From Clostridiales bacterium GWD2_32_19 (GTDB lineage Bacteria; Bacillota; Clostridia; Lachnospirales; UBA12420), in NCBI GenBank assembly GCA_001795385.1, contig MGOU01000019.1, positions 1 to 48,945 of the forward strand: a stretch of 48,945 bases of DNA, read 5' to 3'. The notes under the pieces are model-generated. The model was not told the DNA's origin, did no database searches, and saw only the letters and a program-made list of their open reading frames with translations. Each line of letters starts with the position of its first letter. Within the stretch, counting starts at the first letter, position 1. The position numbers and the translations under genes are program-made. Below, piece after piece: positions 1 to 42,904 of the stretch.

Positions 1-113
1 TTTTTTTGTCATCCTCATCGCTACTGCTTACTCTATTCTCACCAGCTCCGCTGGTGGTTTCGACATCCAATGACAACATGATACCCCGTCAGCTTGCTGC
101 GGGGAGGTTCATT
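1..113 (+). repeat. Dispersed repeat, right module with divergent centre
   Basis: Positions 84-113 match the right module of the repeat seen complete at 40409-40569: a CCCCGTCAGCTTG unit followed by a GGGG stem arm and ending in TTCATT. The preceding ATGACAAC at 70-77 matches the end of the central insert. Bases 8-69 differ from other copies and contain a 7-bp hairpin (CACCAGC 40-46, GCTGGTG 50-56). The element may continue left of the window. Confidence 0.7.
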
Positions 114-5061: not shown

Positions 5062-5200
5062 AAGCTCACTCCTTTTTGAAAATTTACAAATAATGATATT
5101 TCATAAAAATATCTATTTAAATGATATTCAATGCTTTAAAAAAAATACTTAAAAATTAATTAAAATGTAGATAAAGGTAGTCCTAAGTTGTTTATGAAAA

Positions 5201-5280
5201 ACGAGATTGCTTCGTCGAAAGAACCTCCTCGCAATGACAAGAGCGTGGCAAGCCGACGGGGAATTAAACCCAAAGAGATT
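5201..5280 (-). repeat. Dispersed repeat, half element in reverse orientation
   Basis: Read on the minus strand it starts with the AATCTCTTTGGG left module, runs through CCCCGTCGGCTTG and TTGTCATTGCGAGG, and stops after the inner arm GAAGCAATCTC. It is therefore a truncated copy of the 40409-40569 element. It sits in the 316-bp gap between cotJA and the DUF2935 gene. The rest of that gap holds the cotJ upstream region and a weak AAAATGT/ACATTTT dyad at 5287-5310. Confidence 0.8.
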
Positions 5281-5377
5281 AAAGATAAAATGTAATGGGT
5301 GTAACATTTTACTCAATATATTAATAAAATGATAGCATATGGCTTTTTAAATGGGCTAATTATTTAGGGGGGATTTT

Positions 5378-8621: not shown

Positions 8622-9374
8622 ATGCAAGATGTAAATAGCAAAACGATAACAAGTCCTCCATGTATTAGTGCCAGGAGCATTGATAAATTTTTTGGAAAAA
8701 AGCAAGTGCTTTTCGATATTAGTTTAGAAGTGCCTTATTCTCAAATACTAGGGCTTCTCGGTCCGTCAGGCTCAGGGAAAACAACTTTAATTAAAATAAT
8801 TTCGGGAATAGATGCTGCGAGCAGTGGAGAAGTAAATGTACTAAATGAAAAGATGCCTAAGCTTTCGGTAATGAGTAAAATTGGATATATGGCACAGTCT
8901 GATGCACTGTATGGAGATCTCACAGCAGAAGAGAACCTAAAGTTTTTTGCATCTATGTATAATTTAAATGGGACTAAACAAAAACAAAGAATAGCTGAAG
9001 TTATGCAGCTTGTAGATTTGTCAGATCACCTAAAAAAGCAAGTTAAGCAATATTCAGGTGGTATGAAACGTCGTTTATCCCTTGCTATTGCACTGATACA
9101 TAAACCTCCAGTTTTGATATTAGATGAGCCTACTGTTGGTATAGACCCTGTTCTTCGTAAATCAATATGGAATGAATTATATAAATTAAAAGATGAAGGT
9201 ACCACGATTATTATTACCACCCATGTGATGGATGAGGTAGAGAAGTGTGATTATCTTGGAATGATTCGTGATGGTAAACTTATTGCTTCAGGTACTCCAA
9301 ATGAAATTAAAAATGCAACGGCTTCAAACACAATCGAAGAGGCATTTTTATATTATGGAGGTGCATCTAAATGA
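8622..9374 (+). CDS. ABC transporter ATP-binding protein (DrrA/CcmA-like)
   Basis: This 250-aa ATPase of an ABC-2 type exporter has Walker A GPSGSGKT at residues 47-54, signature SGGMK at 145-149, Walker B LILDEP at 165-170, a D-loop after TVGIDP, and the switch His in IITTHVMDE. It powers the permease encoded next, which it overlaps by 4 bp (ATGA at 9371), indicating translational coupling. The start has AAAGGAGTG at 8608-8616. The family includes drug and lipid exporters such as DrrA and YbhF. The substrate is unknown. Confidence 0.93.
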   Translation: MQDVNSKTITSPPCISARSIDKFFGKKQVLFDISLEVPYSQILGLLGPSGSGKTTLIKIISGIDAASSGEVNVLNEKMPKLSVMSKIGYMAQSDALYGDLTAEENLKFFASMYNLNGTKQKQRIAEVMQLVDLSDHLKKQVKQYSGGMKRRLSLAIALIHKPPVLILDEPTVGIDPVLRKSIWNELYKLKDEGTTIIITTHVMDEVEKCDYLGMIRDGKLIASGTPNEIKNATASNTIEEAFLYYGGASK

Positions 9375-10387
9375 GAGTGATTGCGGTTATGATTAGGATT
9401 TTACTAGGGCTTAAACATGATAAACGTACAATAGCTTTGATGATTATTGCGCCAATAATTGTATTATCATTGATGTCAGTCATATTTAATGGCTCAGACT
9501 ACAATCCAAAGATAGGAATAATTAACGCACCAATTAATTTTGTGAATAAGCTAGAGGATAATGATGCAAAAGTAAGTAGATACGATGAAAGTGCAGCTGA
9601 ATTGGCACTTAATCAAGAACAAATAGATGCAATCATCAATTTCAAAAGTGGTGTTCCTCATATAAAGTTAGAAGGTAGCGACCCAAGCAAAAATAGTGCA
9701 GTGATTAAACTTACGCAAACTGTAATTCAACAAATAGTCCCGACCACAAAGCCTGATATAACCTATCTATATGGTTATGAAAACATGTCTAGTTTTGACA
9801 ACTTTGGACCGATACTGATTGGATTTTTCGTATTCTTCTTTGTTTTCTTAATTGCAGGAGTTTCATTTTTAGGTGAGCGTACTTCAGGTACACTAGAGAG
9901 GCTACTTGCTACACCACTTCGTAGGTGGGAACTTGTTTTAGGATATATTCTTGGATTTGGAGTTTTTACGATTATACAGGCAACGCTTATTGCATGGTTT
10001 GCAATCAATGTATTAAATATAATGATGATAGGGTCTTTTGCACTCGTACTTCTCATAACTATACTAACTGCAATGGTTGCTCTTTCAATAGGAACATTCA
10101 TATCTGCCTATGCTAATAATGAACTTCAGATGGTTCAATTTATACCATTAATAGTAGTGCCACAATTTTTCTTTTCAGGATTATTTGATTTGAGTACTAT
10201 GCCTACATGGCTACAAGCTATTGGAAGATTTATGCCATTATGGTATTCAGCTGATGGTCTGAGGAATGTTATGATACGGGGAAAAGGCTGGAATGAAATA
10301 CAGATGGATGCATATGTTTTGATTGCGATATGTTTAGTTTTCATGATGGCAAATGTATTAGCTCTTAAAAAACATCGAAAAATATAA
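9371..10387 (+). CDS. ABC-2 type transporter permease
   Basis: This 338-aa membrane subunit has an N-terminal TM helix at about residues 20-38 (IALMIIAPIIVLSLMSVIF), an extracytoplasmic region to about 135, then five hydrophobic segments to the C-terminus. The ABC-2 signature GERTSGTLERLLATPLRRWE is at about 170-190, and QFFFSGLFDLSTMP is near the end. The layout matches YhhJ/YbhS/DrrB-like permeases. It overlaps the ATPase gene and is followed 19 bp later by the HlyD-like gene, so all three are one operon. Confidence 0.92.
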   Translation: MRVIAVMIRILLGLKHDKRTIALMIIAPIIVLSLMSVIFNGSDYNPKIGIINAPINFVNKLEDNDAKVSRYDESAAELALNQEQIDAIINFKSGVPHIKLEGSDPSKNSAVIKLTQTVIQQIVPTTKPDITYLYGYENMSSFDNFGPILIGFFVFFFVFLIAGVSFLGERTSGTLERLLATPLRRWELVLGYILGFGVFTIIQATLIAWFAINVLNIMMIGSFALVLLITILTAMVALSIGTFISAYANNELQMVQFIPLIVVPQFFFSGLFDLSTMPTWLQAIGRFMPLWYSADGLRNVMIRGKGWNEIQMDAYVLIAICLVFMMANVLALKKHRKI

Positions 10388-10406
10388 CATGAACGGGAGG
10401 GATTTT

Positions 10407-11555
10407 ATGAAAAAATTAATTATGAGTATGTTGCTTATTGCTTTTACAATCACAGGCTGCGGTTCGAGTCCTGATAAGCTAACACTAAAAGGGGATATTC
10501 AAAATAATATTATTTCAGCCACAAGCACGGTAGCAGGTAAAATAGTGCAAATGGATAAAGCTCAAGGGGAGCAAGTAAAAAAGGGAGATAGTATTGCTAT
10601 AATAGATAACGCAAATCAAAAATATACAGTAGATCAGTTACAAGCAGTTGTAAATATGAAAAAGGCGAAGCTTGAGGAATTACAAGCAGGGACTCGTCCT
10701 GAGCAGATTGAGCAGTCACAAGCACAAGTACGCGCAGCTAAATCACAGGTAGACCTTTTAACTTCTGGTAACAGAACTGAACAAATAAAGCAATCTAAAA
10801 ACGGTGTTTCTGTTGCAGGTGAAGCAGTAAATACAGCACAAGTAGCATATGATTATATAAATACCCAATATGATAAAGCCTTGAAATTAAATGAGGTGGG
10901 TTCTTTATCTAAGAACGACTTAGACGATGTAAAATTTAAATTAGATACAGCAGCAAATCAGCTTTCTGCTACAAAATATCAATTACAAAGTGCCAAAGAG
11001 CAGCTAGCATTATTGCAAAGCGGTTCAACTACGCAGTCAATTAGCGCTGCAAAGGCAAATTATGATGCTGTTAATGCACAGTTAAAGTTACTAAAAAGTG
11101 GAGCTACAAAGCAATCCATCGATATTGCACAAGCGGATCTTGACCAATCTACAGCACAATTAAATCAAGCTCAAAACAATTTAAATAACTGTAATATTAT
11201 CGCGTTATCCGACGGAATAATTATCAGCAAGAACTTTGAGTTAGGTGATGTTGTTGGCATAGGTAGCAATATTGCTGATATAGCGGTTGCGAATGATTTA
11301 TACATACTTTGCTATATCCCGGATCAATATTTAGATAAAATTTATTATAATCAACAGATAAATGTTATAACATCTACAGGCACACAAATTGGAAGAGTTA
11401 GTTACATAGCTTTAAAGCACGAGTATACACCTAAAGATAAGCAATCCACAACGGATAGTGGACGTATTGCTACTAAAATAAAAGTTGCTATAAAAGATGA
11501 AAAAGGAATCTTAAAATCTGGAATGACTGCAAATGTTGATGTTCCATTAAAATAA
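10407..11555 (+). CDS. HlyD-family adaptor lipoprotein
   Basis: This 382-aa protein has a lipoprotein signal peptide (ITGC, Cys18). A biotinyl-lipoyl-like half follows (STVAGKIVQMDKAQGEQVKKG), then a long coiled-coil hairpin of about 70-270 with three repeats ending in related TRPEQIEQSQA / NRTEQIKQSKN / ATKQSIDIAQA segments. The second lipoyl half (GIIISKNFELGDVVGIG) and a beta-barrel domain complete it. This is a periplasmic adaptor fold, as in YbhG/HlyD, here anchored to the outer face of the membrane. In a single-membrane cell it may guide substrate through the wall rather than to an outer membrane channel. The start at 10407 is supported by GGGAGG at 10395-10400; the longer frame begins 18 bp upstream. 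Confidence 0.88.
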   Translation: MKKLIMSMLLIAFTITGCGSSPDKLTLKGDIQNNIISATSTVAGKIVQMDKAQGEQVKKGDSIAIIDNANQKYTVDQLQAVVNMKKAKLEELQAGTRPEQIEQSQAQVRAAKSQVDLLTSGNRTEQIKQSKNGVSVAGEAVNTAQVAYDYINTQYDKALKLNEVGSLSKNDLDDVKFKLDTAANQLSATKYQLQSAKEQLALLQSGSTTQSISAAKANYDAVNAQLKLLKSGATKQSIDIAQADLDQSTAQLNQAQNNLNNCNIIALSDGIIISKNFELGDVVGIGSNIADIAVANDLYILCYIPDQYLDKIYYNQQINVITSTGTQIGRVSYIALKHEYTPKDKQSTTDSGRIATKIKVAIKDEKGILKSGMTANVDVPLK

Positions 11556-11603: not shown

Positions 11604-11652
11604 GATCTCTTTGGGTTTAATTCCCCGTCGGCTTGCCACGAGGAGATTCATT
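11604..11652 (+). repeat. Dispersed repeat, empty 49-bp form
   Basis: It has the left module (ATCTCTTTGGGTTTAATTCC), CCCCGTCGGCTTG and the right module ending GATTCATT, with no central insert. It ends 3 bp before the stop codon of the minus-strand CAP gene. One base of the CACGGGG stem is changed (CACGAGG). Confidence 0.85.
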
Positions 11653-17385: not shown

Positions 17386-17456
17386 AGGACAATGGGGACG
17401 GTTCTTCATGTCCAGTTTTATTAAAACTGGACATGAAGAACCGTCCCCGTTGTCCT
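17386..17456. repeat. Long palindromic element, GGGGACGGTTC family
   Basis: Arms of 35 bp (17386-17420 and 17422-17456) are complementary except for one G-T position, around a single central base. The core is GGGGACGGTTCTTCATGTCC. It could form a cruciform or an RNA hairpin and may act as the terminator of the Gmad2 gene. Related elements lie at 18759, 23369 and 42850. Confidence 0.9.
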
Positions 17457-19862: not shown

Positions 19863-19911
19863 AATCTCTTTGGGTTTAATTCCCCGTCGGCTTGCTACGG
19901 GGAGATTCATT
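19863..19911 (+). repeat. Dispersed repeat, empty 49-bp form
   Basis: It comprises the left module, CCCCGTCGGCTTG and the right module ending GATTCATT, exactly 49 bp, without the central insert. It lies between the two CBO0543-like genes. An artificial open frame runs through it, upstream of the true start of the second gene. Confidence 0.88.
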
Positions 19912-36510: not shown

Positions 36511-36514
36511 TTTT

Positions 36515-36545
36515 AATCTCTTTGGGTTTAATTCCCCGTCGGCTT
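36515..36545 (+). repeat. Dispersed repeat, left module only
   Basis: It starts AATCTCTTTGGG four bases after the SLH stop, runs through CCCCGTCGGCTT and then breaks off into an AT-rich sequence. It is the most truncated copy in the window. Confidence 0.8.
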
Positions 36546-40370: not shown

Positions 40371-40408
40371 AAAAGGGCAAAAACCACAGTGGTTTTCTGC
40401 CCTTTTTT
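40371..40408 (+). terminator. Terminator of the L21-L27 operon
   Basis: A GGGCAAAAACCAC / GTGGTTTTCTGCCC stem is followed by six T residues. The dispersed repeat begins at the next base. Confidence 0.9.
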
Positions 40409-40569
40409 AATCTCTTTGGGTTTAATTCCCCGTCGGCTTGACGCGTTCTTGTCATTGCGAGGAGGTTCTTTCGACGAAGCAATCTCGTTTTTGAAAGATG
40501 AGATTGCTTCGCAAAAACGCTCGCAATGACAACATGATACCCCGTCGGCTTGCCACGGGGAGATTCATT
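40409..40569 (+). repeat. Dispersed composite repeat, filled 161-bp form
   Basis: A left module starting AATCTCTTTGGG leads to CCCCGTCGGCTTG (40428-40440). A 99-bp insert (40441-40539) follows, then a second CCCCGTCGGCTTG (40540-40552) and the right module ending GATTCATT. The insert has nested inverted repeats: GTCATTGCGAG (40451-40461) with CTCGCAATGAC (40520-40530), and GAAGCAATCTC (40476-40486) with GAGATTGCTTC (40500-40510). Removing the insert and one 13-bp unit leaves exactly the 49-bp form seen at 19863 and 11604. Confidence 0.9.
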
Positions 40570-42839: not shown

Positions 42840-42849
42840 AACTATAGCG

Positions 42850-42904
42850 GACATTGGGGACGGTTCTTGTTGTCCAGTGGACAACAAGAACCGTCCCCAA
42901 TGTC
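42850..42904. repeat. Perfect palindromic element, GGGGACGGTTC family
   Basis: Two perfectly complementary 27-bp arms (42850-42876, 42878-42904) flank one central base. The core is GGGGACGGTTCTTGTTGTCC. It lies between queA and pepD. An open frame running through it is an artefact. Confidence 0.92.

Follow-up and report, generated by a model that had tools for sequence, protein, structure and literature searches.

How did one repeat come to exist, within a single genome, as a 161-bp form with two copies of a 13-bp unit and as a 49-bp form with only one? We addressed this in the window, the whole 48,945-nt stretch of DNA analysed, which is contig C19 of the draft genome G000 (1.97 Mb, 47 contigs, 97.6% complete). 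Direct reading bore out the two forms as first described: the 161-bp copy at 40409-40569 has CCCCGTCGGCTTG at 40428-40440 and again, after a gap of 99 bp, at 40540-40552, and each of the 49-bp copies, 11604-11652 and 19863-19911, has a single unit. With up to 2 mismatches allowed, the 13-mer had 7 matches in the window against 0.08 expected from shuffles; its exact form occurred 57 times in G000 and the reversed control 0 times. The 99-bp insert folded much more strongly than shuffled sequences (z -6.3), and no Rfam family was matched in the window. The original prediction had read this insert as an element that landed with a 13-bp target duplication, citing the sum 161-99-13=49. The numbers are right, but they fit any deletion between direct repeats and so cannot favour insertion with target duplication.

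The copies in the window and their parts are listed below (LE, left end; RE, right end).

40406-40569, plus strand: full composite copy including the TTTAAT left tip; about 28 further near-full-length copies match it at 93-99% identity.
40406-40411, plus strand: TTTAAT left tip, a putative cleavage or target site; TTAAT is near-invariant in 34 copies and the preceding flank is random.
40418-40445, plus strand: LE, a small GGG-TTTAATT-CCC hairpin and a CTTG-loop hairpin (alignment, folding); holds the first 13-bp unit.
40451-40530, plus strand: inner 80-bp inverted repeat GTCATTGCGAGG...CTCGCAATGAC, similar to two CGTC/TGTC-tagged REPs paired head to head (PMC3733652).
40536-40569, plus strand: RE, GATA, a hairpin with a bulged T (40540-40560) and AGATTCATT (alignment, folding); holds the second 13-bp unit.
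5197-5283, minus strand: truncated copy, LE and the first half of the inner inverted repeat.
11604-11652, plus strand: 49-bp single-hairpin form, left part of LE fused to right part of RE.
19863-19911, plus strand: 49-bp single-hairpin form with one CCCCGTCGGCTTG unit.
36512-36545, plus strand: truncated copy, LE only, broken within the hairpin (sequence match).
68-113, plus strand: RE of another subfamily with hairpin CCCCGTCAGCTTGCTGCGGGG (sequence match); the contig starts inside or beside this copy.

Matches to the long copy were found at some 40 places in G000, about 29 of them nearly whole length at 93-99% identity, and a genome-wide census put the full copies at about 32, beside eight of the 49-bp form and several that are truncated. 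Alignment of 36 copies gave a consensus with the order TTTAATCTCTTTGGGTTTAATT-CCCCGTCGGCTTGCCGCG-TTCTT-(80-bp inverted repeat)-AACATGATA-CCCCGTCGGCTTGCCGCG-GGGAGATTCATT, in which the repeated unit is the 18-bp CCCCGTCGGCTTGCCGCG; only 13 bp are shared in the window copy because of its C to A change after GCTTG. The predicted 13-bp duplications at the insert boundaries did not hold up in this genome-wide alignment, where the same unit is present in every copy. Three subfamilies were distinguished in G000; B and C differ from the window's subfamily in both hairpins and cores. The hairpin sequence varies among subfamilies, yet it usually agrees between both ends of a copy. At G001:C40:35507, in a congener, the same LE/RE frame surrounds an unrelated inverted repeat. 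Variation was 0.9% in the inner part versus 3-4.5% in the frame, a low inner value that may partly be an assembly effect because some copies contain N runs. Such runs lie in copies near C2:12228 and at C41:25750, and the window itself begins (1-113) inside or beside a copy of another subfamily: the repeat breaks the assembly.

The ends of the repeat identify it very probably as a non-autonomous derivative of an IS200/IS605-type element, of the kind that encodes only the Y1 HUH transposase TnpA. The definition of IS200/IS605 elements includes subterminal hairpins on the same strand and in the same orientation (PMC6006769), and the repeat has such hairpins at both ends: by folding, the right unit forms a hairpin in which one T is bulged, and the left unit forms a hairpin that follows the small GGG...CCC hairpin. 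In the window's subfamily the LE hairpin folds weakly (-3.4 kcal/mol, z -0.37). Near-identical ends, LE as TTTAATCTCTTnGGGTnnAATTCCCCG-hairpin and RE as GATACCCCG-hairpin-CGGGG...TTCATT, flank TnpA genes in an IMG/VR contig, a Rickettsiales plasmid and cyanobacterial plasmids. The locus in the viral contig (L311), located through a GGTTTAATTCCCCG scan of IMG/VR, consists of LE TTTAATCAAAAAGAGGGTTTAATTCCCCGCAGCTTGCTGCG, then a 156-aa IS200/IS605 transposase, then RE GATACCCCGCAGCTTGCTGCGGGGTAGTTCATTAA, and its TnpA matches PF01797 (4e-35), NF033573 (1e-36) and the solved structures of ISHp608 and other TnpA proteins. The same end pair flanks annotated tnpA on Candidatus Megaera and Pseudanabaena plasmids and encloses a tnpA-matching stretch on Kovacikia and Chroococcidiopsis plasmids, and in a genome of the same order (L374) LE TTTAATCTCTCTGGGTCTAATTCCCCG stands immediately 5' of a partial (truncated) tnpA. 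Overall, counterparts of the window's LE lie beside TnpA genes in L311, L371, L372, L374, L384, L385 and L388, while counterparts of its RE lie 3' of TnpA genes in L311, L384 and L385, with close variants in L371 and L372.

The LE stem is also maintained by compensatory changes. Across 11 LE sequences 100% of the cells were paired, two-sided (compensatory) changes occurred in 3 of 5 pairs, and the covariation score was 0.524, compared with 0.119 for shuffled and at most 0.116 for slid alignments. Because the TnpA-flanking ends match and the LE stem covaries, we take the frame to be the end pair of an IS200/IS605-type element. The conserved TTAAT at the left tip is accompanied by ATG/CAT motifs able to pair around the RE hairpin, and the relatives are too diverged to show an empty target. 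The exact RE hairpin is present in repeats of Parcubacteria, Nitrospirae, Alphaproteobacteria, Deinococcales and Treponema. Double-hairpin repeats with the same layout and very different insides occur in Parcubacteria and other phyla (L150, L123, L129, L137, L152 and similar loci); these are apparently miniatures of the same IS200-type ends.

A transposition cycle can be proposed from these parts. LE and RE each carry a hairpin, and because one transposase would read both, the hairpins are near-identical and point in the same direction; this accounts for the 'two 13-bp units'. TnpA supplied in trans would bind both hairpins and cut at two putative sites, just after TTAAT at the left end and just after TTCATT at the right. 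The repeat would then be excised and moved as a single-stranded DNA circle and inserted 3' of a TTAAT-like site. The position of tnpA is occupied by an inverted-repeat dimer that resembles CGTC-tagged REPs, and the 49-bp form most likely results when the two end hairpins recombine or replication slips between them.

That the repeat is a miniature, non-coding, dispersed element of mobile type that would need an enzyme encoded elsewhere was a sound suggestion. The transposase with matching ends that was to be sought was found in elements from other sources (for example L311), but the draft assemblies of G000 (97.6% complete), G001 and G002 yielded no intact IS200-type TnpA whose ends match. The IS200-type gene of G000 contains a stop and has different ends, and the L311 TnpA had no match in G000 at 1e-20. 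A matching TnpA in the same cell is not what defines a non-autonomous derivative, but the failure to find one lowers any claim of present activity; the spread of the family may date from a time when an autonomous element was still there.

We also compared the window with the congener G001. The places orthologous to the copies at 5197, 11604, 19863 and 40409 had no repeat there, neither 49-bp nor 161-bp, and no 49-bp copy examined proved to be an orthologous empty site, contrary to what the insertion model had foreseen. The matched G001 stretches were mostly about 75-87% identical, too diverged to show an exact junction, and no polymorphic insertion was seen. The absence of the repeat at these places dates the gain of the four copies, or their loss, to the time after the two species diverged. 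One G001 copy (L106; G001:C46:21514-21678) is 97% identical to the window copy, well above the usual level for matched stretches, which suggests recent transfer or recent activity in both genomes.

Genes next to two of the window copies differ as well. Just 3' of the long copy, between rpmA and queA, is a methyltransferase gene (PF13679; 40618-41817, plus strand); in G001 and G002, both congeners, queA directly follows rpmA with no gene between. An ABC transporter/HlyD-type operon (8622-11555, plus strand) adjoins the 49-bp copy at 11604 and is missing from the corresponding G001 place. Another dispersed repeat, GGAAGATAATACTGATAAAATAT..., has 34 copies in G000 (L207-L230 and elsewhere), 0 in G001 and 0 in G002; the copies read lie upstream of a likely gene start, often abutting the GTCATTGCGAG core. 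In G001:C61 (L160/L109) an IS110-family transposase gene adjoins an LE copy, with GTCATTG remnants inverted on both sides, and this IS110-family element may have inserted into the repeat core.

Eight copies of about 49 bp were found: 11604 and 19863 in the window, C2:27590, C7:40876, C8:55343, C23:17165, C31:1198 and C32:12879. They most likely arose when the LE and RE hairpins recombined, or when replication slipped from one to the other, with loss of 112-113 bp, which agrees with the 'exchange between two repeat units' that had been offered as an alternative from the start. It is also conceivable, though rather unlikely, that the 49-bp form is no deletion product but a second, REP-like mobile unit with a single hairpin. 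Two short copies share a left-tip variant, TTGATCTC, that no long copy has, which suggests that short forms may also spread alone, and an unrelated IMG/VR contig (L277) contains a 49-bp-like form with one hairpin and the same layout. However, every short copy has LE to the left and RE to the right of its hairpin, and there are only eight, each explicable by one LE/RE recombination. We considered TTTAAT-A-CCCC in the short copy at C32:12879 as a sign of a different crossover point and set it aside, since one long copy has the same A.

We considered it improbable that the frame is a REP/RAYT-type system moved by one of the genome's RAYT-like Y1 proteins of about 300 aa instead of by an IS200-type TnpA. 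Several Y1 genes of about 290-314 aa do occur in G000 and its relatives, a RAYT-like pseudogene adjoins a 49-bp copy (L173), and in Paceibacterota two such hairpins lie directly against a RAYT-like gene (L183). Yet adjacency at two loci is near chance, and when the Y1 genes of G000-G002 were screened by their flanks no matching ends were found except that 49-bp copy beside the pseudogene; in other phyla, the Y1 genes located close to the hairpin were too few to exceed chance. The intact Y1 genes of the genome lack these ends, and some are flanked instead by GGGGACGGTTCTT hairpins. Furthermore, REPIN pairs are inverted, whereas the hairpins of the present repeat are direct, and its ends match IS200-type TnpA elements. 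The window has GGGGACGGTTCTT palindromes at 17386-17456 and 42849-42904, which look like RAYT-type hairpins because GGGGACGGTTCTT also flanks RAYT-like Y1 genes of the genus (L167, L170, L171).

Insertion of a 99-bp element into a 49-bp repeat with duplication of 13 bp of target is highly improbable: the window-copy numbers agree with it and the inner dimer does exist alone elsewhere, but the shared unit is longer in the consensus, the hairpins differ by subfamily and usually agree between the ends of a copy, all 28 classifiable long copies hold the inner part the same way round, and autonomous IS200/IS605 elements have both hairpins with tnpA between them. The single orientation argues that the inner part was not inserted afresh into many 49-bp copies and that the composite is the unit that spread. 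The repeated units are best read as the LE and RE hairpins of the IS200/IS605-type frame, and at its outer tips no target duplication beyond chance was found (32 copies, 1144 length/offset combinations, best z 3.1). A single ancient insertion between LE and RE is possible; it would not have created the repeated unit.

What the frame carries is less ordinary. Within GTCATTGCGAGG...CTCGCAATGAC there are two inverted arms, each with TGTC-ATTGC at its start and GCAAT at its end. No dedicated transposase is known for CGTC-tagged REPs. In the published account (Di Nocera et al. 2013, PMC3733652), these REPs form head-to-head dimers, Rickettsia RPE-4 included, have stems of 8-9 bp and are listed from five phyla other than that of the present host. 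The inner part resembles a head-to-head dimer of such REPs, a resemblance and not a family assignment: the TGTC tag faces outward on both sides, the stem starts with AT (TGTC-ATTGC...GCAAT), and the dimers are head-to-head and dispersed. The present dimers differ in lying mostly inside an IS200-type frame, in their Clostridia-type host and in a stem shorter than 8-9 bp.

Unframed inner dimers were found in G000, G001 and G002. Among the dimers sampled, a complete or partial frame was present in 39 of 44 in G000, 3 of 8 in G001 and 0 of 6 in G002, counts that are biased because many loci were fetched by their frame. Since three subfamilies share the layout, the REP-type dimer was probably acquired before they split. 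We suggest tentatively that IS200-type frames carry and disperse CGTC-type REP dimers, and that such REPs could have spread in part by hitch-hiking in IS200/IS605-derived miniatures. This would offer a route of dispersal to REP dimers that lack their own transposase.

The apparent new miniature transposon with a 13-bp duplication is thus settled, the duplication being the hairpin end pair of an IS200/IS605-type element. The result adds a well-populated non-autonomous IS200-type family, with three subfamilies in one genome, and an end signature found in groups as different as cyanobacteria, Rickettsiales and Clostridia-type bacteria. In the library searched for core or hairpin strings, no paper was found to describe the repeat's sequence, and the IS982-derived MITE of Cardinium (PMC9769881) is a different element.

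Among known systems, REPIN/RAYT units are likewise non-coding, dispersed hairpin substrates of a Y1 enzyme (PMC3116915, PMC2817692). The present hairpin pair is direct where REPINs are inverted, has no GTAG tag and, unlike REPs, flanks no RAYT gene except a pseudogene. With TnpA-only IS200/IS605 elements (relatives of IS608 and ISDra2; NF033573) the repeat shares direct, similar LE and RE hairpins, the bulged T of RE, the lack of target duplication and the fixed left tip TTAAT, and its ends match those of L311, L371, L372, L374, L384 and L385; it differs in having an approximately 80-bp REP-like dimer between its ends in place of tnpA, with no matching TnpA found in G000. Non-autonomous derivatives of IS200/IS605 are already known, as palindrome-associated elements and MITEs that are miniature and non-coding, have hairpin ends and are presumed to be moved in trans. 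Unlike these, the present family carries a dispersed repeat that also occurs alone, and it frequently leaves single-hairpin remnants. What is new here is an IS200/IS605 derivative in which a REP-type dimer is nested; the class of element is ordinary, its cargo unusual.
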